From Cliona cf. orientalis (lineage: Eukaryota; Porifera; Demospongiae; Clionaida; Clionaidae): DNA of 64,000 bases. This document shows, in pieces, positions 3,734 to 41,632 of the stretch (position 1 is the first letter of the stretch; each line of letters starts with the position of its first letter). The translations under genes were made by a program, and so were the position numbers. The notes under the pieces were generated by a model. It did not search any database. It worked only from the letters and a program-made list of their open reading frames with translations, and had not been told where the DNA came from. Where the stretch lies: the NCBI GenBank assembly GCA_963930775.1, contig OZ005698.1, positions 4,780,501-4,844,500 of the forward strand. Direction: 5' to 3'.

Positions 3734-4145
3734 TAGAGTCAGTAGACTCTATAAGTAGGGATGGCACGGATACTCCATATATGTAATACATTACAAAAAT
3801 CCAAATATCTCAAAACAGGTAACTTTGTGAAATTTCTAAGTGTCAAAATTAGAATCTATAGCAAATTGTCTATCTAACAAGACCAAGATCATCCATCAAC
3901 TCAATTGTATATGCCAGAACCAGATGGTAAAAAAATAGCCATTTGTCAATCTTTCTTTCTTTGTCATTTCCAGGGCTAACTCAAGACTCTCTGGACCTCT
4001 CACCTTAGTTCTCATATAAATCCACTCTATTTTGTAGCGCGCAGTGCAGTGGCACGCTAGTTTTGCGTTATCTCTACAGTCACATAATGGTGGGTGTGTA
4101 CGGCGCATTAAAGATAGGGTGTGTCCGATACGCCATTTTTATTAT
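3734..4145 (-). repeat. Dispersed repeat carrying a promoter-exon-like block, arm 1
   Basis: The block opens with a hairpin ATAGAGTCAGTAGACTCTAT and continues to a GTGTGTCCGATACGCC motif. It is repeated in inverse complement at about 5640-6035 and again at 31055-31470; a partial copy lies at 8290-8530. On the minus strand all copies contain a short exon-like run ending AAGGTGAG, a good splice donor. Confidence 0.65.
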
Positions 4146-5105
4146 ACAAGTGTAAAAATAATTGAATAAAATTGAAGGATAAAGTAGGGATGGCAATGCC
4201 AAAAAGTACACAAACAAGATTTTTAGGGATAAGAGATAATCACAACCAATATGCATCCCTACACTTGCTTTTCTTGATTATAATTACAGACCTATGTTGA
4301 TGTCGACTCGTGCTATCCTTGGAGTGTTCTTGACTTGCACGTGGGAGAAATTTTTATATTACCATAGTCTCCCGGGTAAGCACCCACTCCCGGGCAAGCG
4401 CCCAGGTAACTGTTTTGCCCAGTCGAATGGTAAGCGCCCACTCCCGGGTAAGCGCCCAGGTAGGCTGCGCCTAGATCAACATGGCAAGCGCCCATCAAGA
4501 AAAATTTGCAAGATCACTGCCTCTACATGGCAATATCAAACTCCAACGCAGTCGATGGGTCCGAAGAATCCTGAGGGATCTCAAGAACGGCGACGATGAA
4601 GCCGATCAGGAGGGTGCTGGCGAAGATGACGATGTCGACAATCTCGATCCCTTCTCTGATTCAGATGACTAGCTAACTTTCTCTGGCAGCTTGTGTAGTT
4701 TAAACTTTTCTCTCTATACATCTCATGATACATGCAGTCGCTTCCTATAAAAACACGCAAGCGTGCGCTCTATAAGCTTATAGAGCGCTTACCATAAGTC
4801 TAGCTTACTGCCACGCCCACAAAATTGGCCCTGCCTATATCAATTTTTGCACATAGTAAGCGCCCAGTACACCGGGTAAGCGCCCAGTATGGCGAAATCA
4901 GCGAGTTATGGTAGAGCGCCCATGGGCGCTTACCCGGGAGACTACGGTATTATCGATTATTTATGATCCCCATGCTACTCAAAAAGCAAGCGTAGGGATG
5001 TATATTGGTTGTGATTATCTCTTATCCCTAAAAATCTTGTTTGTGTAATTTTTGGCATTGCCATCCCTACTTCATCCTTCAATTTTATTCAATTGTTTTA
5101 CACTA
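4146..5105. mobile_element. MITE with 120 bp TIRs, split by a nested MITE
   Basis: Left arm 4146-4278 (TACAAGTGTAAAAATAATTG onward, with AAGTAGGGATGGCAATGCCA) pairs with right arm 4985-5105. Subtracting the nested element at 4361-4948 leaves about 372 bp, the size of the intact relatives at 6684-7100 and 32114-32478. Confidence 0.75.
4361..4948. mobile_element. Nested MITE with ACCRTAGTCTCCCGGGTAAG ends
   Basis: Both ends read ACC(A/G)TAGTCTCCCGGGTAAGC as inverted repeats, flanked by ATT on each side (probable 3 bp target duplication). Inside, CCCGGGTAAGCGCCC-type motifs repeat several times. A frame at 4481-4672 ends in a strongly acidic tail (GDDEADQEGAGEDDD), perhaps a relic of a captured or transposase C-terminus; this is speculative. 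A 90 bp relative lies at 29841-29930. Confidence 0.75.
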
Positions 5106-6539
5106 GTTTCTGTTCTTTTTTATTGCATGTAGGAGTGCAACTATCTACAGTTAGCATAGATGGGAGGTGCCGAAGTTCGCACGTGCGCGTAAAAGTAGTA
5201 GCCACGCCCCTCGTTAACTCGCCTAGGCGATAAAGCTGTTTCAGGCGGCCTAGTAGCGATGAGACTCTAGTACTAGTATAGCTATTATTAATTTTATCGA
5301 CTATTTTTGTCACTACTGAGCTGGCTGTTATACCGACTTCTGAGGGCCGTGCCACGCCCGTACGTTGAGGCCTCAACTGAGTCTCCATATCCCAGCGCAG
5401 TACCGTAGCGCTGCATGCACTAGCCTCTATAGCTAGGTTCACTTTATCACGCTCGCGCTCGCCTAGCTCGCGCGGGCCCGGGAGAGCCTGTATGGCTAGG
5501 CTAAGCTAGCTTGGTTCGAGGCGCTAGCTAGCTGGCTTGCTAGCGGCGGTGGCGCGCGCCACTGACTACAGTCACATGACTTCACCATGGCAACAAATTA
5601 TGAGCGTGCATTACATGACAAAAATGGCGTATCAGACACACGCTATCTAGCTTAAATGTGCCGTATATACCCACCATTACGTGACTGTAGAGATAACGCA
5701 AAACTAGCGTACCACTGCACTGCACGCTACAAAATAGAGTGGATTTATATGAGAACTAAGGTGAGAGGTCCAGAGAGTCTTGAGTTAGCCCTGGAAATGA
5801 GAAAGAAAGAAAGAAAGAAAGAAAGATTGACAAATGGCTATTTTTTTGAACATCTGGTTCTGGCAAATACAATTGAGTTGATAGATGATCTTGGTCTTAT
5901 TAATTTGCTGTAGATTCTGATTCTGACACTTAGAAATTTCATAAAGTTTCCTGTTTTGAGATATTTTGGAATTTGTAATGTATTACATATATGGAGTATC
6001 CGTGCCATCCCTACTTATAGAGTCTACCGACTCTATGATAATACACATGCTCATAATGCGTTGCCATGGTGAAGTCAGTGACTGTAGTCAGCGGCGCGCG
6101 ATACCGCCGCTAGCAAGCCGGGTAGCTAGCGCCTCGAACGAAGCTAGCTTAGCCTAGCCATAGCTAAACGCCAGGCTCTCCCGCATGAGCGCAATAAAGC
6201 GAACCTAGTTAGAGGCTAGCGCGCGCAGCGCTCAGAGTACTGCGCTGGGATATGAAGACTCGAGTCCTCAACGTACGGGCGCGGCACGGCCCTCAGCAGT
6301 CGGCATAACAGCCAGCTCAGTAGTGACAAAGATAGTCGATAAATCAATAATAGCTACACTAGTACTAGAGTCTCATCGCTACTTGGCCGCCTGAAACAGC
6401 TTTATCGCCTAGGTGAGTTAACGAGGGGCGTGGCTACTACTTTTACGCACACGCGCGAACTTCGGCACCTCCCATCTATACTTACTGTAATATAATATTA
6501 TTATAGTTGCACTCATGCAATAAAAAAGAACAGAAACAG
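5106..6539. mobile_element. Large foldback element with 480 bp arms
   Basis: Sequence 5107-5595 returns in inverse complement at about 6062-6539, including TTAACTCGCCTAGGCGATAA and GCTAGCTAGCGCC-type blocks. The centre (5600-6060) holds an inverted copy of the block at 3734-4145, with a (GAAA)n tract near 5806-5826. The element is flanked on both sides by ends of the 372 bp MITE, so the cluster 3734-6683 is symmetrical at several scales. Confidence 0.65.
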
Positions 6540-6683
6540 TGTAAAAACAATTGAATAAAATTGAAGGATGAAGTAGGGATGGCAATGCCAAAAAGTACAC
6601 AAACAAGATTTTTAGGGATAAGAGATAATCACAACCGCTATACATCCCTATGCTTGCTTTTTGAGTAGCATGAATCAATAATA
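6540..6683 (+). mobile_element. Truncated end of the 372 bp MITE family
   Basis: About 125 bp match the left arm of the MITE at 4146 (TGTAAAAACAATTGAATAAA through CATCCCTATGCTTGC). It stops where the next MITE begins, so it was probably cut by later rearrangement. Confidence 0.6.
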
Positions 6684-7100
6684 ATACAAGTATAAAAACC
6701 AATGAAATTGAAGGATGAAGTAGGGATGGCAGGGTCAAAAAGTACACAAACAAGATTTGTAGTGATAATCACATTCACTATACATCCCTACACTTGCTTT
6801 TTTCGATTATCATGCACCTGTTGATGGTGACCCATTGGTGATAAATCCTTAGTTTGAATGATCCTATGCATGTGGGAGAAATTCATCTTATCCACTATGC
6901 TCATAGAGGGGTGGGGGGTTAATCAGCTTCTATCGTCACATTACTGCCTGCATGGTTAGTTAATTCCTGCACCTACTCAAAAAGTAAGCGTAGGGATGTA
7001 TAGTGAATGTGATTATCACTACAAATCTTGTTTGTGTACTTTTTGACCCTGCCATCCCTACTTCATCCTTCAATTTCATTGGTTTTTATACTTGTTCCTG
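6684..7100. mobile_element. Intact MITE, AAGTAGGGATGGCAGGGTC variant
   Basis: Arms 6686-6808 and about 6968-7098 are near-perfect inverted complements, starting TACAAGTATAAAAACCAATG and ending with its complement. Length about 415 bp. No coding content. Confidence 0.78.
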
Positions 7101-7270
7101 TTCCTTTTTTTATTCCTCTTTAGGATAATTCATCTATGCTATCTGACATCATTAAATTTTACGTGTCATGTATTCATGATAGCAGCAGTAATTTTTTTTC
7201 ACCCTCGTCCGGTAATGATATGCACCATTGTCCGCTCTCTACCTCCAGAACCAGCATGCAATACTTGCAC

Positions 7271-7818
7271 TAGTCTCGTGCCCAGCCCCCTTGCGTGAAA
7301 GCATAGATAAAAGAGAGGGGGGAAGAGGGATTGGAAACGGTACTTTAGGCGTGTTTCTATTTATTCATGCACTGGTGTACCTCTAGTAAACTTGTTATGC
7401 AAAATTATCACTTGGCTGATGTTTCTGGATATACCTACGTAGTTCGAGAATGCAACTGCATGGTCCAGAGCACCCAAAATGGTTCTGAGTAAGCATGCAT
7501 ACCATATATCTCCTACCGAAGTAAAAATCAGCAATATAACAATAGTTAACTTTGGTGTACCTCTAATTAGTATCCAATTTTAAGTTTAGCATTAATTAAA
7601 TAGTTCATAGTGATCATCAGCACACAAGCTATGCAACCATATCAATGATGACATGAGATGAATAACTTAAGAGTTAAGTTTACCAGAAAAAGTGATGTAA
7701 AACTTGTGCTAGAGAAACGCGCCTATCTCTACAAGTTTACATATATATGCATAGTGCATTTCCAGTCCATCTCCCCCCCTTGTTAGTCTATGGTGAAAGG
7801 GGGCTGGGCACGAGACTA
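7271..7818. mobile_element. TAGTCTCG-family element, 548 bp, 9 bp TSD
   Basis: Ends TAGTCTCGTGCCCAGCCCCC and its complement (GGGCTGGGCACGAGACTA). Flanks TACTTGCAC and TACTTACAC form a 9 bp target duplication with one change, as expected for a Mutator-like (MULE) element. No transposase gene inside, so it is non-autonomous. Confidence 0.8.
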
Positions 7819-7827
7819 TACTTACAC

Positions 7828-8770
7828 CCTGCACAATTGGAGGTGGGTGGAGCCACATGCAGGTAGACTACTTGCTGCATATTCGCGATCTAGTGCTGTT
7901 CGTTTTGTTACTGATATAGCACTATCTTTCCTTAGCTGTTCGAAATATGCCAACTCCACTCTATCTTGATTCCAGGAAGAGGTAACAGTCTTAGCCACGC
8001 CCCTCATTAGTTCGTCGTTTAAACGTAGCCTTACCGCGGCCCCTCAGCTCTAGAACAGTCAGCTCTGACAGTGACTGTCTTCGTCCCCAGGTCCAGAGAA
8101 GTTACTATCAACAATAAACTTACTGGCTTCTAAGATTTGCTCCCTAAACAGAAATTTTTCACGGCCTAGTGCGAGCACCTTCTGTCAGCTCTGCTCACGC
8201 ACACACAATCGATATGCGATGCAGTCGCGCGCGCGCGGCGCCATGCCAGCGACTCCTGTCACATGACTTCACCATGGTTACTAACACAATATGAGCATGC
8301 GCATTATATGACAAAATGGCGAATCAGACACACCCACTCGCAAAATGGGCTGAACACACCCACGATTGAATTGCTGTCCTGATAACACTAAACTAGCGTG
8401 CCACAGACGTGCGCGCTATAAAATGGAGCGGATTTATACTCGAATCAAGGTGAGTGGTCCAGGGAGTCTTGAGTTAGCCCTGGAGAATAAAACATTGAAA
8501 AATTGCACTTTTTTTATCCCTACTTATAGAGTCAAAAATTACTGACAGGGAGAACATAAATTTCTCCCACATGCAAGTCAAGAATACTACAAGGATAGCA
8601 TTCCTTGAATAAGTTGATATCAATAGGTTTATAATTATAATCAAGAAAAGCAAGCGTAGGGATGTATAGCGGTTGTGATTATCTCTTATCCCTAAAAATC
8701 TTGTTTGTGTACTTTTTGGCATTGCCATCCCTACTTCATCCTTCAATTTTATTCAATTGTTTTTACACTT
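7828..8770. mobile_element. Composite repeat: promoter-exon block plus MITE end
   Basis: 8270-8530 is an inverse copy of the block at 31290-31540, and 8540-8770 matches (inverted) the left half of the MITE at 4146-4360, including GTGGGAGAAATTT and the CATCCCTACTTCATCCTTC end. At 8417-8449 a TATAAAA box overlaps a short frame reading MERIYTRIK that runs into the splice donor AAG|GTGAGT. Confidence 0.6.
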
Positions 8771-8845
8771 GTATAATATGTATGTTCACGTTTGCAAATC
8801 TATTGTGGTAATGACAAAATGTAAGAAAAACTCACAATTCTTAAT

Positions 8846-12961: not shown

Positions 12962-13021
12962 GGCTCACGTAGTCTCGTGCCCAGACCCCACCCCCAAAAG
13001 GAGGGAGAGGGTCTGGCGCAC

Positions 13022-13398
13022 CAGAGGAGGTAGGACAGGCTTGACCTTTGGCTAATAGTTCACTAATTAAATCGCAAGTAGAGGCTTTCGTGAAGATTTT
13101 TAGAGGATATCGTTGCGATTTTCGAACTTAGCGCTATTGATTTAGTGGGGGAGCCCCTCTTAGTTAGCACTGTAGAGCAATTTTTATGCCTTTGGAATGT
13201 TAATCAAAGCGGCTAATTGACATTCCAGAGACCAAAAAATTGCTCTACAGTGCTAACAAAGAGGGGCTCCCCCACTAAATCAATAGCGCTGAGTTCAAAA
13301 ATCCCAACGAAATCCTCTAAAAATCTTCACGAAAGCCTCTACTAGCAATTTAATTAGTGAACTATTAGCCAAAGGTCAAGCCTGTCCTACCTCCTCTG
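13022..13398. mobile_element. Nested foldback, 377 bp, perfect 9 bp TSD
   Basis: The ends CAGAGGAGGTAGGACAGGC and its complement close a near-perfect hairpin whose inner part includes AGTGGGGGAGCCCCTCTT. The perfect duplication CTGGCGCAC lies at 13013-13021 and 13399-13407. The opposite arm of the host element (13949-13972) shows the uninterrupted site, proving insertion. Confidence 0.88.
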
Positions 13399-13489
13399 CT
13401 GGCGCACTTCGAGCCATTTCTTGTATTTGCTGACTCTGCAGGTCAGGTGATTTTGGAATGTTGATCACGTGCGCAAAGCAGAATTCCAA

Positions 13490-13749
13490 TTAAAAAAGCC
13501 GCTAAACAGGTGGGAATTTGTCGAATACTAAAGAAACGCAAGTAAAACACAGAGTCTGACTTTTGCCACTCCCGGTGGGCGAGATCGCGACCACTTACAA
13601 ACTTCTGAAGAACCTCTGCTTGATCATCAGTCGGTTGATCGTATCCAAGTTCTTTAACGCTCTGGGCTGAACTGAAACAAGGGTCACAGCAAGCTTCAAA
13701 CGACAACGAGGAACAAATACAGTCGCGACGTCCTCCACCTGATTCATCT
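13490..13749 (-). pseudogene. Captured RecQ-type helicase N-terminal fragment
   Basis: On the minus strand from an ATG at 13747 (MNQVEDVA) a coding-like run continues after a one-base frame change into SVKELGYDQPTDDQAEVLQK and FVSGRD. In RecQ-like helicases this segment (Q-motif region) leads directly into the Walker A motif. Here a few codons after GRD are missing, and the Walker A codons (PTGSGKS, about 13565-13578) appear in another frame. The piece therefore starts at a natural N-terminus and ends just past ATPase motif I. It lies wholly inside the MULE-like element, so it is most likely a transduplicated host gene fragment, now non-functional. RecQ identity rests on the LGY..PTDDQ / GRD / TGSGKS order. 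Confidence 0.65.
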
Positions 13750-14019
13750 TCGCTAGCGCGCTACACGCAAGTGCTCTAGTTAGCTTCGTGCATACGCCTA
13801 TCATGTATACGTATATTATTTGTCATTAAAATTATTATTATTAATATTAATTATTTACGTTAGTCTACAAGTCACATGACAAAATCACATGCCTGTAATC
13901 TGATTGGTAGTCCAGGATCCTGGACTGTCGAGTCAGCAAATACAAGAAATGGCTCGAAGTGCGCCAGACCCTCTCCCTCCTTTTGGGGGTGGGGTCTGGG
14001 CACGAGACTAGGCTCACGA

Positions 14020-15129
14020 GGTTGGTGTAAAACCTGGACTCTGAACTCTGGACTGGACTGTGGACTGGACTATGGACTGAGATTTGGACTGACGCGTTTG
14101 ATTTTGACGACCATTTCCAATCAACCTTTACTAGGATCGTAGGATCGACTGAACCATAGATAATAGATAATAGATATTATCTATGACTGAACGAAGGGCA
14201 GTAAATCTATCACTTCTGTTGGAGCATAGGGATGGAGTGGTGTCTGGGGTAACAGAAATGGAAAACAATAAGCTTACTTCCTTATGAAGTCACGGTGGGA
14301 TCAAGAACTAAGCATGCAGTGTATTTGTCATTAAGCCAACATGTCAGTGCTTCTGATTCACTAGTATCAAACCTCTGGGCCGCCTCAGCTAATGTTTATA
14401 GTCTTCAAATATAAGTTTGTGATGCAAATGACTGTTGAGTTACTTAAAATGATATTGGACTCAAATCGTTTGACATCTTGATCATACATACATACTAGCC
14501 TATAGCTGTGGCACCTGAGCAGAAATTTGGATCTTACTAGCACATACATGTATCACAACACAGAGTGCATTTCAATCTTGTCACCTTGATTCCACATGGT
14601 AAATATTCACACTGAAGTTGCAACACTGGTAATCATGAATCAAAACACAGTGCTATTAGATTGCACAAAAAACAAAAACAAACAGTTCACACAAAAACCA
14701 AACATAAGCTGCAGATATTCTGTGTTGCTGTCAAGGAGGTTATGATATCCCGGAGAACAGTTAAGACTTCATGGTGTAAGCTTAAAGAAGGGAAATGCAG
14801 CCTGAACACAAGCAGTCTGGCTCATGAAGCACTGACAAACACTAATTCAGGCTTACTGATAACACAGCATGCTGATTTCTTGATCCCACCGTGACTTTAT
14901 GAGAAAGTAAGCCTATTGTTTTCCATTTCTATTAGCTAAGGCACCTCTCCAACCCCATGCTCCAACAGAAGTGATAGATTTACTGCCCTTTGTTCAGTCG
15001 ATCCTAGTGAGGTTGATTGGAAATGGTCGTCAAAATCTAACGCGTCAGTCCAAACTCCAGTCCAAATCTCAGTCCATAGTCCAGTCCACAGTCCAGTCCA
15101 GAGTCCAGAGTCCAGGTTTTACACCAACC
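14020..15129. mobile_element. 1.1 kb element with long TIRs made of TGGACT repeats
   Basis: The ends GGTTGGTGTAAAACCTGGAC and its complement lead into 60-70 bp of TGGACT/TGGACTG short tandem repeats in each arm, then unique sequence; the arms match out to about 14310 and from about 14870. The central 550 bp shows no gene. It abuts the target duplication of the preceding element. Confidence 0.72.
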
Positions 15130-16424: not shown

Positions 16425-17405
16425 GGCACTGTACAGTGTGATAGAGTGCTAAGCTGATGGAAGTACTGTTCGCGGATCCCTATTCACTGGTCAGTGGTCC
16501 CAAATTTCATATACACGATGCTACATGTACCTCCTGGGTGTTTACCACATACAAGCATCATTATACACTGATTATAGTTGTCAGTGCGTGCATGCATGTG
16601 TGTGTACGGAGGTGACCGGAAGCAATTTGACATGAGCTAAAACATTTATTTCTAGGCATCACTGGACTTGGGGGCAATAAAACAGATAGCCCACGACACG
16701 GCTAGGTATGGTCCCAACAGCGATTCGACTGAAGTGAGCTGCTTCAAAAAACGCCAGGGCATAATTAGACTGAACTGTACCACTTACAATGGCAGCCTGG
16801 AGAATGCAAAGGGGTGACACTCTGGAGTCAACGTTGCCCATAGGTGCTTTTCAGAAGGAGGCAATTCTATTTGAAGCATCTTCTCCTGGGAGCCCTTGTG
16901 AACGAAGCTGCAAGACAACTAACAAATTTCTTGAGCTAGCTAATTGACAAAGTCATATGATCAGACAGGATATGCACGTGTGCTATGCGCACAAATACGT
17001 AGGTAGAGGTCATCGACGGCACACGCACAATAATATGTGGCACAGAGATAAAGGATCATTGCTTGTGTAACTTATAGATGTGTTAACAGGATTGGAAACT
17101 GCTCATGTGAGCAATACATTTCCATTGAACAATGGCTGTGTACTGGTAAATGATCATTGATTTAGTGCGTACACCATCTACATTCGATACCTCAATTGCA
17201 GAGATGTAGTTGACGGCGTCTGAGACTGACTCTTGACCTTGATAGTGACAAATCTGGCTGCTTTAATCACAGAGATGAGCTCAACAAGAAGTGAAGAAGG
17301 CAGCAGTGGTCAGCAAATGTTATTTTGAACAAAGCATTTTCAACAAAATCCACACAATGAATATTTATAAGCTATCATAAAAAGCCTAATGGCACCTTGT
17401 TTTTA
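16425..17405. other. Intergenic, with two dispersed repeat pieces
   Basis: 17090-17118 is the GATTGGAAACTGCTCA block. 17165-17300 matches (CTCAATTGCAGAGATG, TCTGAGACTGACTCT) the dispersed repeats at 29330, 39065 and 48325. No gene supported. Confidence 0.45.
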
Positions 17406-17944
17406 AGGTTACGGGATAGTATTCGACGCGCAATTTATAAATGATTGTGCACGGACTGAATTCACGTATGTTTCAATGCGGTTTAGTCAGAAACGTGAAC
17501 GAATGTCGACCATTTCCAGAAGTAAACAAAAGTCCGAATTTCTGCGTCAAGTTTTGAAGACCAGAGACTCGAACGAACTGACTTCGCTGTTCACGCTAGT
17601 CCATCGATCGGAGCAGGGCCAAGTATAGAGCTTTTTCGAAAACTCTAAGATGGTGAGTCGTTAGACAAGGTTTTGTCCTGGAGGGCCGCCATTAAGCGAG
17701 TCACATGGCAGCTGAGCAGTAAGTTTTTATGTTCGCTTTCTGTTCATGTAACTCGACGGAGTTCAAACACTATACTTGGCTCTGTACAGGAATTTTCAGG
17801 TCCGTTATCAGCAATGCTTACACGCATGCGCGATATACACATGCCCTTTTTCCTTGTTTATTACCTATCTATGAGGTTGACAACGGCCAGAATGGCAAAT
17901 CAATCGAAAGAGAGTGGAGGCACTTACGTGCATTTGATATCTGA

Positions 17945-18951
17945 TCCCACTCAGTGACAGTAAACAACGGATCTGGAATGACACTAGGTGGCTCAAGCGT
18001 TTTGCCAACTGTTGCTGGACGTGTAGTTGTGACCCCACTGACCTCTAGACCAGGTCCAACTCCTATCAACGCACCAGTACGTCCTCAGCTGATCAGTAAA
18101 GTCCTTGTTAAAGCGTTCACCAAAGGGAGTAAGAAAGATCCTAAGATATTTACCCAAAGAAATATAAATCCGGATGAGGTTTCCAGTGTGCACAAGCTCG
18201 AGCGTGTCATTAGAGATCAGTTGTTTGATGAGATATCTCGGAGCACTTTTGATATTGGTTACATACAAGGTAGTCATACAGTAACCATAAGGAGTAAAGA
18301 GGACCTCCTGGAAGTGTGGTCTAATTTAAAAAAGGTGGCAACATCATTCTTTGGTGCGATGGCTTGAAGAGGTCGACAAATAAAAAAGGAGCAATGTCAA
18401 ATGATAGCTCGGAAGATGATGATGAAGAGGACGTCCAAGAGACAGTTAAGAAGAAAAGGAAGAGGGCAAAAAAGGTAGATGAAGAAGAGGTTGGAGAGCC
18501 TATTAAGAAAAGGAAGAAAGGGGAAGATAAGGACAAAAAGGTACAAACAACAATCGACCAGCTCACTGGAAAGCATGGTGATAAGTCCTATACTCCTATG
18601 CAATATCGTGTGTGGGCAGAGGTGTACCTCGGTGGTGTTCACCCTAGCCTTGATACTCCTCCAACTTCCACTATGTTTAATCAAGCTGGTGGTGGTGGTT
18701 CTGTAAAGAGAAAGGTGGGTCAGGAGGTTGTCTCGGCAATTAGTGACTTGACCTCGGCTCTTACTCCTAAGCTCATCCCTTCAAGCAGTGGTAGCTCCAC
18801 AAGTAGCCCAACGAAAATGATTGACAACCACACTAAATGCTACAAGCAGCTGGCTGACCTCAAGAACTTATTTGAAAATAGTGTGCTGTCCAAAGAAGAA
18901 TATGATGCAGAGAGATCAGTGATTCTTGGAGTACTCAAGAAATTAGTGTGA
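17945..18951 (+). pseudogene. Transposon passenger gene: ubiquitin/PB1-like domain plus charged tail, one frameshift
   Basis: An open frame from 17945 (first in-frame ATG 17978, GMTLGGSSVLP) runs to 18367, and a second frame from 18325 to 18951. They overlap at an A/G-rich run (18325-18335), and the second frame restores a conserved-looking LWCDG motif just after EDLLEVWSNLKK. I read this as one gene with a single one-base indel. The N-terminal part ends in a compact domain (VIRDQLFDEISRSTFDIGY onward) that resembles ubiquitin-like/PB1 folds. Then come an acidic-basic segment (SSEDDDEEDVQ, KKKRKRAKK; a likely nuclear signal), a middle part with YTPMQYRVWAEVYLGG, and a C-terminal helix pair (YKQLADLKNLFENSVLSKEE). 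Function is unknown. Position inside a transposon suggests a helper role in transposition, which is inference. An upstream exon is possible: ATG|GTGAGT occurs at about 17650. Confidence 0.7.
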
Positions 18952-19852
18952 CCTTCAAGAGAGCCCTTGATGCTGAGCATACTTGAAATAGTTGATCATT
19001 CTGTTTCATGATGCTCTTTATCTGGCTAAATACCCCTTCAGCTGGATTGAGATCAGGTGAGTACGGTGGTAGAAAACACAGTTTGGCTCCAGCCTGTCTC
19101 TCAATAAGGTCAACAACCTGATCCACATGGTGGATAGAGGCATTGTCCATGATGACAACTGATCTGGGATTGACACCATTAAAGGGGTTTAGATGTGGCA
19201 ACAAGACATTTCTCACAAACATGGTGAAACGTTCTCCATTCATAGTTCCTTCAGCTATGAATACATCATGGATACCATCCATAGATATCACAGGTATTGC
19301 TGTGTATCTGGTGCCTCTGATTAGAATCCTCTGATCACAGATTGGTATGCCCCTCACACTGTAACCGTACTTTCTAGTAGAATGACGATGGTCACAGCCT
19401 GTTTCATCAAGCCACACAAACATACGCGGATCATAAACTGATATTTCAGCCATGAAACGTGCTCTTAGAGCATCTGGTCTCTGTAGTGCTACTCGATGCA
19501 TTGCTTGCCTGGTGCAGCCCATGCGCTTCAATGTCCTACAGATAGTAGGCACACTGACTAAAACACCAAAAATGGCCAATAGACGATCCTGTAGCTCATC
19601 TAAGTATATCCCAGGATTTTCCAGGATGAGTCTGAGCAGCGTTATTTGTTCAAAATCTCCCATCAACATTCTCGGACCATTCCTTCTCTTTTGAGGCTGA
19701 ACATCACCAGTACGGTTGAACAAAGAAATGTAGCGCCATACTGTACGCTCTGATACGCTCATCAGTTGCGCAATTCTGGCAGGAGCGTAGTTAGTTGACA
19801 AGTGGAGCCATACGACTCACCACCGAAGATCAAGAGAGAATGGAGTTGGCAT
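18935..19852 (-). pseudogene. Tc1/mariner-IS630 superfamily transposase, DD35E, one in-frame stop
   Basis: The frame starts at an ATG at 19852 (MPTPFSLDLRW), has a TGA at 19819-19817 where relatives of this family carry Arg (CGA to TGA decay is the simple reading), and then stays open to 18935. Residues about 20-60 form a helix-turn-helix (APARIAQLMSVSERTVWRY). Catalytic residues are clear: Asp149 in VWLDETG, Asp236 in VIMDNASIHH, Glu272 in LPPYSPDLNPAEGVFSQ, with 35 residues between the second Asp and Glu. The protein cuts and pastes the element at TA sites. The C-terminus (ALLKVTLIS) seems about 15-20 residues shorter than relatives I recall, and it overlaps the end of the passenger gene. 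Damage is slight, so active copies may exist elsewhere in the genome. Confidence 0.9.
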
Positions 19853-20244
19853 GCTTGCGCTCGACGATCGAAGTTTGAAATACCCGCCTGGTGCTCAATA
19901 TGCATGCGCATACAATGACGACCATTACGCGTATCCATACTGACAACGGACCTGAAATTCCCTATAGAGACTCGTAAGCTATCGTTTCATTTGTATGTCA
20001 ATACATAGAGGCTGTTTACCTTGGTAAAAACTGATGCAGAAAATTGCAATACTTACCCGCGCTTGCAGACAGACAGTGGCAGGTTTGTTTTTCGTTTTTG
20101 TGGACCATGGGGCAGGCATCAGGAGAGCTACTTACCTGTGCCTTGACTGTGCAAAGAACGTGGACAAAAACTGGAATATAACTGTCTCATTTATTATTCA
20201 TGTGAACTTTGACCATGCGTGGACGGAACACTATCCCATAACCT

Positions 20245-21659
20245 TACATATATGTAACAGCTACCGTGGTAATAGACACACACACACAATTGCAAGGAGT
20301 ACTGTACCCTTGCATATGTGCAGAGGGTTAATAATGATAATAATGACCAAAACAGGCGGCCTCCTAAAAAGCATGCGGGCGGGTGACCAGAAATACGTTC
20401 TCTATTAATACTGGCCTAATTGATAGTATGTCATACTATATAATATATATTATAGCGCGCATGCTTGTCATTCTATGCGCGCATCATAATTGGTTTGTAC
20501 TGTACTATTGAGCTCTCAATTGTTGAAAGAGACAGCAACTGCTTCGTTTCAAGAAGATTGGTGTGTAGATCTAGCGATAATTCTTTAGTAGGCTATCAAC
20601 TATGCTTCTTGGCTTTGTGCTAAATCTGCTGATCTGGCATGCATGTGGTACTACCGGGGGTATTACGTAATACTGTGCAGTCGGTATTAGTGTATTTTTA
20701 TGGTTATTCTCTACAGCACAGCTAACAGCTAGCACAGTATTGCTGGCAAATTTGCAACATGTAGACTAGCTATACTTCATCACTACTATTCATTTTCTTA
20801 TTGCTCCCAGCGCCAAGGATTTGACACCATCATTTGGCACTGTGCATGCTCAGTTCAATTAGCAAGATTAATGACAGCCTCCTTTCTGTGGTTTGTCCAG
20901 GAAATATTCGAATTGTACAGGATATGTTGAGGTAAAATCATGGAATAATATTAACCGCCTGCCACATGCTTATAACGGCCAGTGGAGCTCTGACCAGAAA
21001 TGCTTACTACTAACATTGACCTTATAGTGGCTATACCTTACGTCAGTCCAGAAAATTTACTGAGTTACAACGGTGGCACTTTTAAAGTATTCGGTGGATA
21101 AATGTGTAACTCAATCTATAGATACTTTAGCGAATTTTTAGGCATCAAAAGGGCTTTGTTGAGGCCTTGAATTTTCCCAGTCAATCCGCCAATGTATGCA
21201 TTGTCGTATACTTGTATTAAAATTTATTTGCACTCTCTAATTATCCGAATTGATGCACATTTCAGCGCGAAATCAATGGTGGTTTTTTTGCAGAAACTAT
21301 CGGGCAGCTGCATAGCGATATAATGTTTAATAACTGAACGCACCAACATTAGCACAAGATTAAGCTATCCAGTTGCTATTCAACCACTTACCTTCCGTTA
21401 TTCGGACGAATGAGGTCAAAATGAAGAGCAGCTCCACCCATCACCAGAAAGGTGTGGTTAATTTAACCGTATCCAAATATAATTCTTATCTTATAATCGC
21501 GTTAAATTTTATACTTTGTATGCATATTATTAACACATTAAATCAGTGTACAAAAAGTAATAGCAACCGTGTGGTTGATTACTAATCTGGAGTACAGAGC
21601 ATCAAAATTGCCTAATAATTTATGCCTTCATGAACTTGGCTTGACTTCTACTGAATGCT
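20245..21659. other. Intergenic, no feature seen
   Basis: AT-rich, with short ORFs lacking any recognised signature. Confidence 0.4.
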
Positions 21660-31760: not shown

Positions 31761-32113
31761 CGCAGGTCGAGAATCCCACTGATGTATGTTAGTGTGTGAT
31801 GCAAAAGAAGACGTCCTAGCTAGCTATCAAACGACTGCCTGGGATTTGCACTTACAGGAATATTCAAGTTTGAAATCACGGTGTGTTGCGGTTCCATAGC
31901 TCAGGCCTACCTTGGTCCAGAAAAAAAGAAGTTGTAGCTATTTCTAAGCATTTATAAATAACAATGAATAGGCAAATCATAATATCAGGTCACCATGGTA
32001 TGTATAATTTCATGCCCGGCCTCTGTCCCCACGAAATTAGTCAACTAGGTGGCATTGATGAAATTAATGACAATCATGAGCTACCCCGAGGGCTCTAAAA
32101 AAAGAACACTAAC

Positions 32114-32478
32114 AAGTACAAAAACAATTGAATAAAATTGAAGGATGAAGTAGGGATGGTAGTGCCAAAAAATACACAAACAAGAATTGTAGGGATAACG
32201 TATCACACCCACTATACATCCCTACGCTTGCTTTTTGAGTAGCCGTGCACACATAATATTATGATGATATATGGGGCACATGCAGGAATGGAAAATCAAT
32301 ACCGTAAACCCATGGATAGCGATACTTTACATACTAAATCAGAAGTGTATGATATTAATTATCAAGAAAAGCATGCATAGGGATGTATAGTGGGTGTGAT
32401 ACGTTATCCCTACAACTCTTGTTTGTGTATTTTTTGGCACTACCATCCCTACTTCATCCTTCAATTGTTTTTGTACTT
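32114..32478. mobile_element. Intact 365 bp MITE, AAGTAGGGATGG family
   Basis: Arms 32114-32245 and 32353-32478 are inverse complements, ends ACAAGTACAAAAACAATTGA. It follows the promoter-exon block by about 350 bp, the same association seen at 3.7-4.3 kb and 8.3-8.8 kb. Confidence 0.78.
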
Positions 32479-33781
32479 GTGTACATATGATTATAGCTGA
32501 TTTGTGGATTCAGTAGGGTGAAGTAAAATGAAGTGCTTGCTTCCACCTGCCTGCAGGGTTTCATAGAGCAGTATGTTAATTCCCCCCCTCAAGGGAGGAG
32601 GCTACATAGTGTTATTGCATGTGATTGTCACAAAACCTGTTAAGCATTTGTAATCATGGTATAAAGGATAATGCATTACTAATACCAGATTTGGCCAAAA
32701 TGGGTCTAAATGCTCTCTAAGAGGTCTAAAACTTCCAAAAGCTGCCATGGGCATGCACACAGATCCCCAGAGATGGCAGTGTTTATTACCCCACGTCCAT
32801 GCGCAAAGGGTAAAGCAATGTCAAGTTTTAGGCATCTGTGTGTGCTGTAAGCACAACGAATTGGTAGATATCGGTGAAAAACTGGTTTCTATGCACTTCG
32901 AATTGTTGAAATGGCTTACTAGCGCTATAAATCGTGCATTTTCTGTTCTGCATGCCTGTTGATTATCGACCACACCCACTATACCAGAGCAGATGATAAT
33001 TATGATACTACATATGTCAATGTTGGCCGGACATGATCTGATATCAAGTTATATGGCCCCATTTAGCTATATACAAAACTATCTGTCTAACAATAATAAT
33101 GGTAATAATAAAATTAAAGACTAAGTAGACATAAATCCTATTAAATTACTGAGATATTCCCATGATGATGTTGTTGTGAAATCTCAAATTAATGCAATGA
33201 AATTCGCGTCATGGCATAGTACAGGGATTTTCATAGGCCATGATATTGCTATAATTTATAGTTATGAGTGTAGTATACATTTCATAGGCTTTGAAAATCA
33301 TATGATTTTGTAAGCAGGTATGAAATTTCATGATTTGACTGAGTTGATATTTCACATGCTGTGAAAATCCTATGATTTATCCTAATAGCAGGTGAACATA
33401 AATCATAGGCTCCCTTGCAATTGCCTATGATTTAAGTTTAATGCACAAAATGTAAGACTGTATGCATTTAATGGATTCTCCAGCACACGCATTTCACATG
33501 CATGCAAGAAAGGAGCCAATCAGATGCATTCAGTATGATAAAAAGCAGCTGATATCGATGCTATAGTATAGTTTTAAGCCAGGCTAAATTTTTGAAGATG
33601 GCTGTTTAGTTGCCCATAAGTGAACAGCAATTTAAGGTATTAAGCCAATTTTGGGAATACTCAGAGCATCAAAGAAGATCAACCTGCAGCTGGATCAGGT
33701 GAGTGCTATGTCTGCATGGTCCAAGTCTGTGCAGCTGCTCACAAAAGAAGAAAAACAGCAAATTTACTGAAGCCCAGGAAG
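32479..33781. other. Intergenic, with CATAGG/CCTATGA-rich stretch
   Basis: 32740-32830 resembles an inverted end of the family at 1597-2075. 33228-33440 repeats TCATAGG or CCTATGA at least six times on both strands. No gene. Confidence 0.4.
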
Positions 33782-40190: not shown

Positions 40191-40878
40191 TGCTGTGCAT
40201 TTCCCTAGCTAGTTTAGTCTGATTCAGTCTGGCTATGTACATTTATTGTGAACGGACATACAGAAGATTAATTGTGACCTTTTGACCCAGAAAACAGCCG
40301 ATGGCCGACCGTTATAATCTGCTCTAGATCTGATATACTAGGATATACTGATGGGACTAAGCATGCTCAAGCTCAGTACAGTGTAGGAAAGGGTCGTCGA
40401 GTAGCAGCGGGCCAAAACAGTGAGTTATGTTCAAGTGCCCATGGGCACTTTTCCTGGACAATACGGTATTATGGCAACTCCCAGGGGCATAGCCAGGATA
40501 TTCTGAGGGAATTTTGCATGTGCAAAAAATCACGCTCTCTAATTAACGATCGCCGTTTCAGTAAGATTTTGCTAGATTCTCGAGATTTTAGCAAAGAAAT
40601 ACAAGGAAAAGCACAAAAGGGGGAGATCTAGTGGCTGCACATAGAAGTTGGAAACCAAGGGGGTTTCCTGACTGCTAAATCATACCAAGATCTGTATACT
40701 GAATTGACTACCGGGGGGGGATTCTATGTAACAAAGAAATAACTAAGCTACACCACTGCCCCCCCCCCCCCCCAAAAACCAAAAATCCTGACCTATAGTC
40801 TGTAAACAGCATCAAACCATGTAGTGACAGTGAGGTAGGTTGTGATCATGTAGAAAGGCTGAAGTTGGCCCCATCCTG
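40191..40878. other. Intergenic with a MITE end and C-run
   Basis: 40432-40467 (AAGTGCCCATGGGCACTTTT to ACAATACGGTA) is a stranded MITE end. A C-run occurs at 40759-40775. Confidence 0.4.
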
Positions 40879-41513
40879 TAGCCTCGTCCCCAGGCTCTCC
40901 CCCTCCTCTTTATTTTATACGCGCGATTTTATTTACGCGAAATTAAATTATTGTGCACAGAGAAGGGAGGGGGAGAGCCTGGGAGGCTTTGATCACGTGC
41001 GGACACTGATGACGCGTTCAGTGTCCATTGTGTCCACGTATGAGAGTCCAAAAGAACGAGAAAGAAGCCCGGATCAGCGTGCTAGTAGGCTTTTTGGAGT
41101 GCTCTACAGATGGCTCGATCGATGGACAAGACTGCCAGCCAACTTTTTGACGCCTCGCGCTCTTGAATCTCAGAGAACGATCATCACTGGATCATGGTAG
41201 CCAACTCACTGGCACTGTACGAGATTCAAGAGCGCGAGGCGTCAAAAAGTTGGCTGGCAGTCTTGTCCATCGATCGAGCCATCTGTAGAGCATTCCAAAA
41301 AGCCTACTAGCACGCTGATCCGGGCTTCTTTCTCGTTCTTTTGGACTCTCATACGTGGACACAATGGACACTGAACGCGTCATCAGTGTCCGCACGTGAT
41401 CAAAGCCTCCCAGGCTCTCCCCCTCCCTTCTCTGTGCACAATAATTTAATTTCGCGTAAATAAAATCGCGCGTATAAAATAAAGAGGAGGGGGAGAGCCT
41501 GGGGACGAGGCTA
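40879..41513. mobile_element. 635 bp near-perfect palindrome, TAGCCTCG family, 9 bp TSD
   Basis: Arms of about 310 bp are almost identical inverse complements, starting TAGCCTCGTCCCCAGGCTCT. The perfect direct repeat CCCATCCTG flanks it (40870-40878 and 41514-41522). Each arm encodes the same mirrored 100-codon frame, which I take as a by-product of symmetry, not a gene. Confidence 0.9.
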
Positions 41514-41632
41514 CCCATCCTGATCACTCCAGTTTTGAGCTGGTGGACATGTGCACTGGCTCAGTTGAGGATTTTTCATTCAGTATAATATTGCTTCTAT
41601 CCAGGACAGCAGAATTATTATACTTTAATTGT

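Follow-up and report, generated by a model that had tools for sequence, protein, structure and literature searches.

The DNA considered here is a window of 64,000 nucleotides from the sponge Cliona cf. orientalis, and the locus of interest lies at positions 17406–20244 of that window, to which all coordinates below refer unless another contig or locus is named. This interval holds two mobile elements, one nested in the other: an inner element carrying two genes jumped into a TA dinucleotide of a high-copy TTAA-flanked repeat of ~660 bp that is like a miniature inverted-repeat transposable element (MITE). The inner element is a degenerate DNA transposon of the IS630-Tc1-mariner (ITm) type, belonging to a large DD35E lineage. 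Its second gene, here called the passenger, is a standing part of the element and no accident. A sequence-only reading of the locus had described a DD35E transposase on one strand and a passenger on the other, meeting tail to tail, and this is borne out by the Pfam assignment of the transposase and by the coordinates of the frames, both given below.

The nesting emerges from a search of the window's own genome (216.8 Mb in 149 contigs) with positions 17406–20244 as the query. Matches were found in the window itself, in one partial relative of the insert and in at least 38 other places that hold the outer parts only; 40 of 509 candidates were scored, so that the copy counts are lower bounds. 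These at least 38 other copies correspond approximately to query positions 1–384 and 2555–2839 at 91–97% identity, with 93–96% over the left part, and in 38 of the 38 scored the left match directly adjoins the right one, the insert being absent. Ten copies were fetched, each measuring 663–671 bp when two bases of either TTAA are counted in; all ten lie between TTAA tetranucleotides and run uninterrupted through the point at which the window copy is broken, reading CTG-TA-GAGACTCG. In the window, the left part of the outer repeat (17407–17786) is flanked by TTAA (17403–17406) and breaks off at that TA, while the right part (19967–20243), likewise matched in other copies, is followed by TTAC (20244–20247), presumably a mutated TTAA. 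The sequence-only reading had taken 17406 and 20244 as the TA-flanked ends of a two-gene unit; they are instead the limits of the outer TTAA repeat, which shares TTAA duplications and short inverted ends with piggyBac-type TTAA repeats. On contig C7 (9118662–9119610) the right part of the outer repeat occurs as an inverted duplicate.

The inner element itself spans 17787–19964 (2,178 bp), TA to TA, and is missing from the other outer-repeat copies. It is flanked by TA at 17785–17786 and at 19965–19966, a target site duplication that is seen upon comparing the window copy with the uninterrupted repeats. Its terminal inverted repeats (TIRs), at 17787–17811 on the plus strand and 19940–19964 on the minus strand, pair over 25 bp with 21 of 25 positions matching, and the left end carries a motif common to relatives. 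Because the other outer-repeat copies lack the insert, and because the insert has TIRs and a TA duplication of its own, the inner element is a real two-gene unit.

The transposase occupies the minus strand, where the open part of a degenerate frame (18935–19801, 288 aa) matches Pfam DDE_3 with an expectation value (E) of 5.7e-28 and HTH_23 with E 2.4e-6 and shows D-35-E spacing. A stop lies near its N-terminus, and its C-terminus diverges from that of relatives. Among 18 transposases, 17 show both catalytic motifs, 16 of them with D-35-E spacing and one with a spacing of 34; in the transposase set A2, DDE_3 is found in 12 of 12 members and HTH_23 in 11 of 12 at E ≤0.001. Against solved structures the best values are E 0.03 (PAX-6), 0.038 (GerE) and 0.04 (the Sleeping Beauty transposase SB100X). 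Related transposases, mostly 30–38% identical, occur in IMG/VR contigs, and these we take to be bacterial IS630 elements, a reading of our own and no tool's assignment.

The passenger runs on the plus strand over two overlapping frames, tail to tail with the transposase. The first (17954–18367) holds the variable N-terminus and a PB1-like region (PB1 E 0.012), the last stretch of which falls, by alignment, in the second frame; the second (18364–18951) holds an acidic/basic segment, the motif YTPMQYRxW...SLDxPP and a SHOCT-like end (SHOCT E 2.6e-4). Thus the window copy is degenerate, with both genes broken, and intact relatives exist. When 30 passenger loci were read, asking for at least 320 codons of passenger and at least 280 of transposase, 18 of the 30 had a single passenger frame of that length (330–466 codons), 18 of 30 had a transposase frame of that length, and 14 of 30 had both genes open. 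Since the passenger is a single frame in 18 of the 30 loci, a lesion of the window copy is the simpler explanation of its split. Programmed frameshifting between the two frames, which meet at a run of A, was considered and set aside.

That the two genes travel together is seen at loci L078, L079 and L080 (contigs C14, C19 and C1), which are 99.0–99.8% identical from TA to TA in unrelated flanks and in which a passenger frame of 348 codons and a transposase frame of 332 codons are open in all three. In this family of copies, both genes move as one unit, and the earlier suggestion that the second gene is integral to a Tc1/mariner-type element is supported as far as one genome can show. Inverted ends next to TA, matching at 20 or more of 26 positions, were found at 20 of 30 passenger loci and in none of 90 first-order shuffles, and most loci with such ends have in common an end motif close to TTTTCAGGTTNGTTGTC. 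Two loci, L071 (812–3484) and L077 (868–3236), have perfect 26/26 inverted ends that lie outside the usual end motif or are unlike it, which suggests that some lineages have longer TIRs or that these copies are nested in a different repeat.

The pairing of passenger and transposase extends well beyond this family, within the one genome from which all of the pairing evidence comes. Searches with the C-terminal half of the passenger (151 matches, the best 150 of them used) and with its N-terminal half (74 matches) were merged to 145 passenger loci, and a transposase search yielded 135 scored of 556 candidates. A listed transposase lies within 2.5 kb of 88 passenger loci, convergent with the passenger at 86 of them and on its strand at two, as against a mean of 0.83 pairs upon random placement of the transposases; the other 57 loci have none within 2.5 kb among those listed. 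Conversely, 93 of the 135 transposases have a match to either passenger half within 2.5 kb, 91 of them convergent. Among those scored, the 23 transposases closest to that of the window (its own included) are all accompanied by a passenger, and the first without a listed one stands at rank 24, with 49% identity to the window's.

With a profile built from 15 passengers, the 1.8 kb downstream of 20 of the 47 apparently unpaired transposases was read, and 19 of the 20 proved to have a diverged passenger, always on the facing strand; the sole miss, L135, adjoins a transposase match that stops at residue 225 of 288. From the other side, a transposase profile finds a match beside every one of the 30 passenger loci that are closest, counting that of the window, and 29 of these matches are facing; seven of the 57 passengers that had seemed unpaired fall among these 30. 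At L068 the main transposase match lies upstream, on the same strand as the passenger, as in a rearranged copy or some other arrangement. Transposases routinely lacking a passenger, which the sequence-only reading had held would speak against a joint element, were accordingly not what was seen in this genome (23 of 23 closest and 19 of 20 unpaired ones read are accompanied), nor do any of the 30 closest passenger loci look like free-standing host genes, all lying beside a transposase match. The passenger accompanies transposases down to ~40% identity, in the same orientation.

Neither the remainder of the window nor any of 51 IMG/VR loci that hold related transposases gave a match to the passenger profile. 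A pattern search for passenger relatives matched 36 times in viral contigs and 27 times in prokaryotic genomes, and none of these matches was confirmed. As a control, 17 of 23 matches to HTH_Tnp_Tc3_2 lie outside the transposase list, and two of these 17 have a passenger match within 2.5 kb, one of them convergent.

The two proteins have also diverged in step. Passenger and transposase protein distances are correlated with a Mantel r of 0.87 over 11 pairs and of 0.73 over 10 pairs without L078, with p 0.0001 in both cases. In the passenger alignment one sees, in order, a variable N-terminus, a patterned region (KVLxKA...KTFTLRN...FDVGY...EDLxEVW...LWCDGL), an acidic and then basic segment, a conserved block (YTPMQYRIWxE..GG.H.SLD.PP..MF) and a conserved C-terminus. 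Two sets of passenger sequences were compared with Pfam, one of 15, which includes the two window halves, and one of 27, several of which are fragments, with L052 and L077 in both. SHOCT (PF09851) is matched at E ≤0.1 by 10 sequences of the first set and 15 of the second, with best values of 3.4e-6 and 2.2e-6; its cut-off of 27 bits is passed by L049 (27.1) and L147 (27.7), other individually checked members falling below it or being unmatched. The motif K[KR]x[KR] is a common core of nuclear signals. It occurs in 18 of 18 passengers and two of 18 transposases, and runs of at least four lysine or arginine residues in 14 of 18 and four of 18, both sets containing near-identical copies.

The passenger frames of four diverged loci (L132, L133, L134 and L136) stop at roughly matching positions. 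L133 has a GTAAGT donor and an ACAG acceptor whose use would link the conserved GGSWK and SLDEPP stretches; GTGAGT stands at that place in L132 and L134, and the donor is missing in L136. These features suggest a spliceosomal intron, possibly a conserved one, in the passenger of the L132–L134 group, as in a nuclear gene.

The near-constant presence of the passenger, its fixed tail-to-tail order, its joint movement with the transposase and the correlated divergence of the two argue that it serves the element in some way, and we think it probable that the passenger is a transposon-encoded helper, or accessory, protein of one kind or another. A part in nuclear delivery or in assembly of the transposition complex is suggested in particular because nuclear-type segments are mostly missing from the transposase; this narrower proposal is a tentative one. 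By analogy with its family, the transposase would act as other ITm enzymes do, binding to the TIRs, cleaving the DNA and inserting the element at TA. The passenger would enter the nucleus by way of its lysine-rich segments and self-associate through its SHOCT-like C-terminus, and its PB1-like region would bind a partner, be it the transposase, a host protein or another passenger. In this manner the passenger could bring the transposase to the nucleus, to the transposon ends or to the target.

Several observations weigh against this account. The partnerless sets were read in part, seven of the 57 passengers and 20 of the 47 transposases, and the control with other Tc1-like transposases of the genome is thin, a single locus (L152) having been read. 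There, no passenger is seen (best E 0.66), but a retroelement-like frame occupies the passenger's place. At this locus (C14:4981700–4983700) a Tc1-like helix-turn-helix frame stands beside a frame that by eye resembles gag with zinc knuckles, perhaps a retroelement adjoining a Tc1-like remnant. As to the ends, the 20/26 test is passed as well by seven of 35 stretches of the window taken as controls, where other inverted repeats lie, and 10 of the 30 loci have no inverted ends even at 18/26.

The domains are a further point. The sequence-only reading had given the passenger a ubiquitin/PB1-like domain, a charged segment and a C-terminal helix pair. Of these, the alignment bears out a charged segment; its C-terminal part is conserved, and the helicity of that part is suggested by the SHOCT match and a low-confidence model. 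As for the first domain, PB1 (PF00564) is matched at E ≤0.1 in six of 15 sequences (best 1.2e-5) and in only two of 27 (best 0.042). A scan of the whole genome puts seven places over the PB1 cut-off, two of which are passengers (L055 and L051, at 28.3 and 23.7 bits), and the passenger profile aligns with four of the other PB1 matches of the genome over 51 columns with E 9e-4 and a probability of 22%. A certain PB1 domain was rejected on two of these grounds, the two sequences of 27 and the profile–profile probability of 22%; the region is PB1-like, which is suggestive of homology and no proof of it. The link to ubiquitin or host chromatin that the sequence-only reading had proposed is a conjecture. 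According to excerpts of one study, a PB1 domain is present in the transposon-derived MUGB proteins (PMC8616336). No solved structure gave a convincing match to the passenger (best E 0.92; 0.56 for the PB1-like part), and single-sequence models of the two window halves, with confidence scores (pLDDT) of 40 and 60, are too poor for use. Lysine-rich motifs, for their part, arise easily in low-complexity sequence, and the near-identical copies noted above enter the counts of such motifs.

Selection, too, speaks with a divided voice. The ratio of nonsynonymous to synonymous substitution rates (dN/dS), proposed in the sequence-only reading as a check on both frames, is low in the sole diverged comparison that is finite for both genes, L058 versus L063 and near-copies: passenger and transposase give 0.10 and 0.07, respectively, at dS values of 2.7 and ~1.9, which are near saturation. 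Close pairs give 0.19–0.62 for the passenger and 0.10–0.76 for the transposase, and some of these copies are broken, values that are compatible with decay after insertion. The low ratios of the diverged comparison count in favour of the helper account. Moreover, the passenger evolves faster than its partner, with dN of 0.28 as against 0.14 in L058/L063.

This last observation would also suit a passenger that is not a factor in the reaction itself and acts instead on the host, as an anti-silencing or host-interaction factor that counters repression, or else as a regulator that damps transposition. Its acidic and lysine-rich segments and its possible protein-interaction domain would suit such a part as well. 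Helper proteins, however, are also expected to change faster, and Pfam gives no convincing chromatin domain in the passengers: DTHCT is matched in three of 15 (best 0.0011) and TFIIF_alpha in one of 15, both, in the members shown, on the charged segment and below the cut-off. We regard such a role as rather unlikely.

Much less probable still is that the transposon has no use for the passenger, which would then be either selfish cargo or a host gene that hitchhikes. The helper function is deduced from sequence, and some Mariner elements do carry captured genes, as excerpts of PMC3627910 describe; there, however, the extra genes vary between related elements, whereas the passenger stays constant and in the same orientation to ~40% transposase identity. 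The correlated divergence of the two proteins and the transposase match beside each of the 30 closest passengers likewise argue against this view, and a captured host gene is an unlikely origin for the passenger. The remaining two explanations can be given almost no credence: that the whole 2.84 kb, bounded by TA and 19 bp ends, is one transposon holding both genes, for which the outer ends do form inverted repeats around both (19/26 matches), founders on the 38 of 38 scored other outer-repeat copies without the genes, the ten of ten fetched ones that are TTAA-flanked and uninterrupted, and the TIRs and TA duplication that belong to the inner element itself; and that the passenger frame is an accidental or antisense one within a dead transposon, as its split over two frames in the window might have it, is at odds with related proteins at 145 loci, with single frames of 330–466 codons in 18 of 30 read loci and with the low dN/dS of the diverged comparison.

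The window contains further repeats. At 3742–6027 and 4140–8778 lie large imperfect inverted repeats, nested and carrying GATGGCA..AAAAAGTACACAAACAAGAT motifs, and similar sequence is found at 32112–32480 and in the outer ends of L071; these are probably another repeat family. A long inverted repeat at 40878–41514, with arms of ~275 bp or more, is foldback-like, and two adjacent inverted-repeat units of ~1.0–1.1 kb (12970–14010 and 14020–15129) may be MITEs or of the foldback type.

Tc1/mariner enzymes usually serve to illustrate the self-sufficient transposase, and their self-sufficiency is one reason for their use in gene delivery. Retention of a second gene next to almost every transposase examined in a deep lineage would show that the Tc1/mariner group can evolve a standing partner, and such a lineage would offer natural material on what a transposase gains from a helper. 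The passenger would then supply a new protein family in which to look for parts in nuclear delivery, target choice or the evasion of silencing. For annotators there is a warning here, as passenger proteins, with 145 listed loci, are easily taken for host genes.

How does this element compare with known systems? In its TA sites, short TIRs, helix-turn-helix and DDE_3 domains and DD35E spacing, the inner element is like Tc1/mariner and other ITm elements, DD35E/Traveler and the bacterial DD35E IS630 elements. The DD35E notation is used for IS630 as well, and the ITm group comprises several superfamilies thought to derive from different IS630 clades (excerpts of PMC7386202). Tc1/mariner elements typically code for a transposase only, according to passages of PMC12242761, whereas here a convergent second gene is usual. 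Among the papers listed by full-text literature searches, with Repbase and most subscription papers outside them, none describes a Tc1/mariner lineage with such a convergent gene. What the sequences may represent, and we put this forward with more reserve than assurance, is a distinct ITm superfamily, both old and diverse, in which an IS630-like DD35E transposase, mostly without a nuclear signal of its own, is joined by an obligate convergent partner (PB1-like, nuclear-type and SHOCT-like) that assembles or delivers the complex. If true, no earlier example of an animal Tc1/mariner-type lineage that depends on a second gene would be known, as far as our searches show.

Accessory genes do occur in the TBE/Tec elements of ciliates, which are alike in combining a Tc1/mariner transposase with accessory proteins. 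In excerpts of PMC12242761 (see also PMC7325037) the accessory genes of TBE are called surprising, as Tc1/mariner elements usually encode a transposase only, and excerpts of both papers say that the TBE accessory proteins are under purifying selection. TBE/Tec elements are described in the same excerpts (PMC12242761, PMC7325037) as having TIRs of ~700 bp and three open reading frames (ORFs), with zinc-finger and kinase (TBE) or recombinase (Tec) accessory proteins; the window element, in contrast, has two genes and matching ends of ~25 bp. The Pfam lists for the 15 and 27 passenger sequences contain no zinc-finger, kinase or recombinase family of this kind. Alike as TA-flanked elements with extra genes are the Mariner elements, several of them virus-borne, that carry Fanzor1, endonucleases or methyltransferases and whose extra genes differ even though their transposase regions are ~78% identical (excerpts of PMC3627910). 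Here, by contrast, one gene family goes with a deep transposase clade, and the Pfam families listed for the 15 and 27 passengers at E ≤0.1 include no Fanzor/TnpB protein with its C4 zinc finger and no nuclease or methyltransferase match.

The proposed role of the passenger has likenesses in other transposase superfamilies. The PIF/Harbinger elements, whose transposase superfamily is different, encode a Myb-like ORF1 protein that aids nuclear import; for the 15 and 27 passengers, in contrast, the Pfam lists contain no Myb domain. MuDR of maize, again of a different transposase superfamily, likewise carries a second gene, mudrB, arranged tail to tail with mudrA. According to excerpts of two studies (PMC2725143, PMC3276141), the function of mudrB is undetermined, it is seemingly necessary for activity, and it is confined to Zea, with related elements lacking it. 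For PIF/Harbinger, an excerpted account has mobilisation needing two element-encoded proteins (PMC2836001). It is this two-protein mobilisation, and perhaps that of MuDR, that the mechanism proposed for the passenger and its transposase would by analogy resemble.

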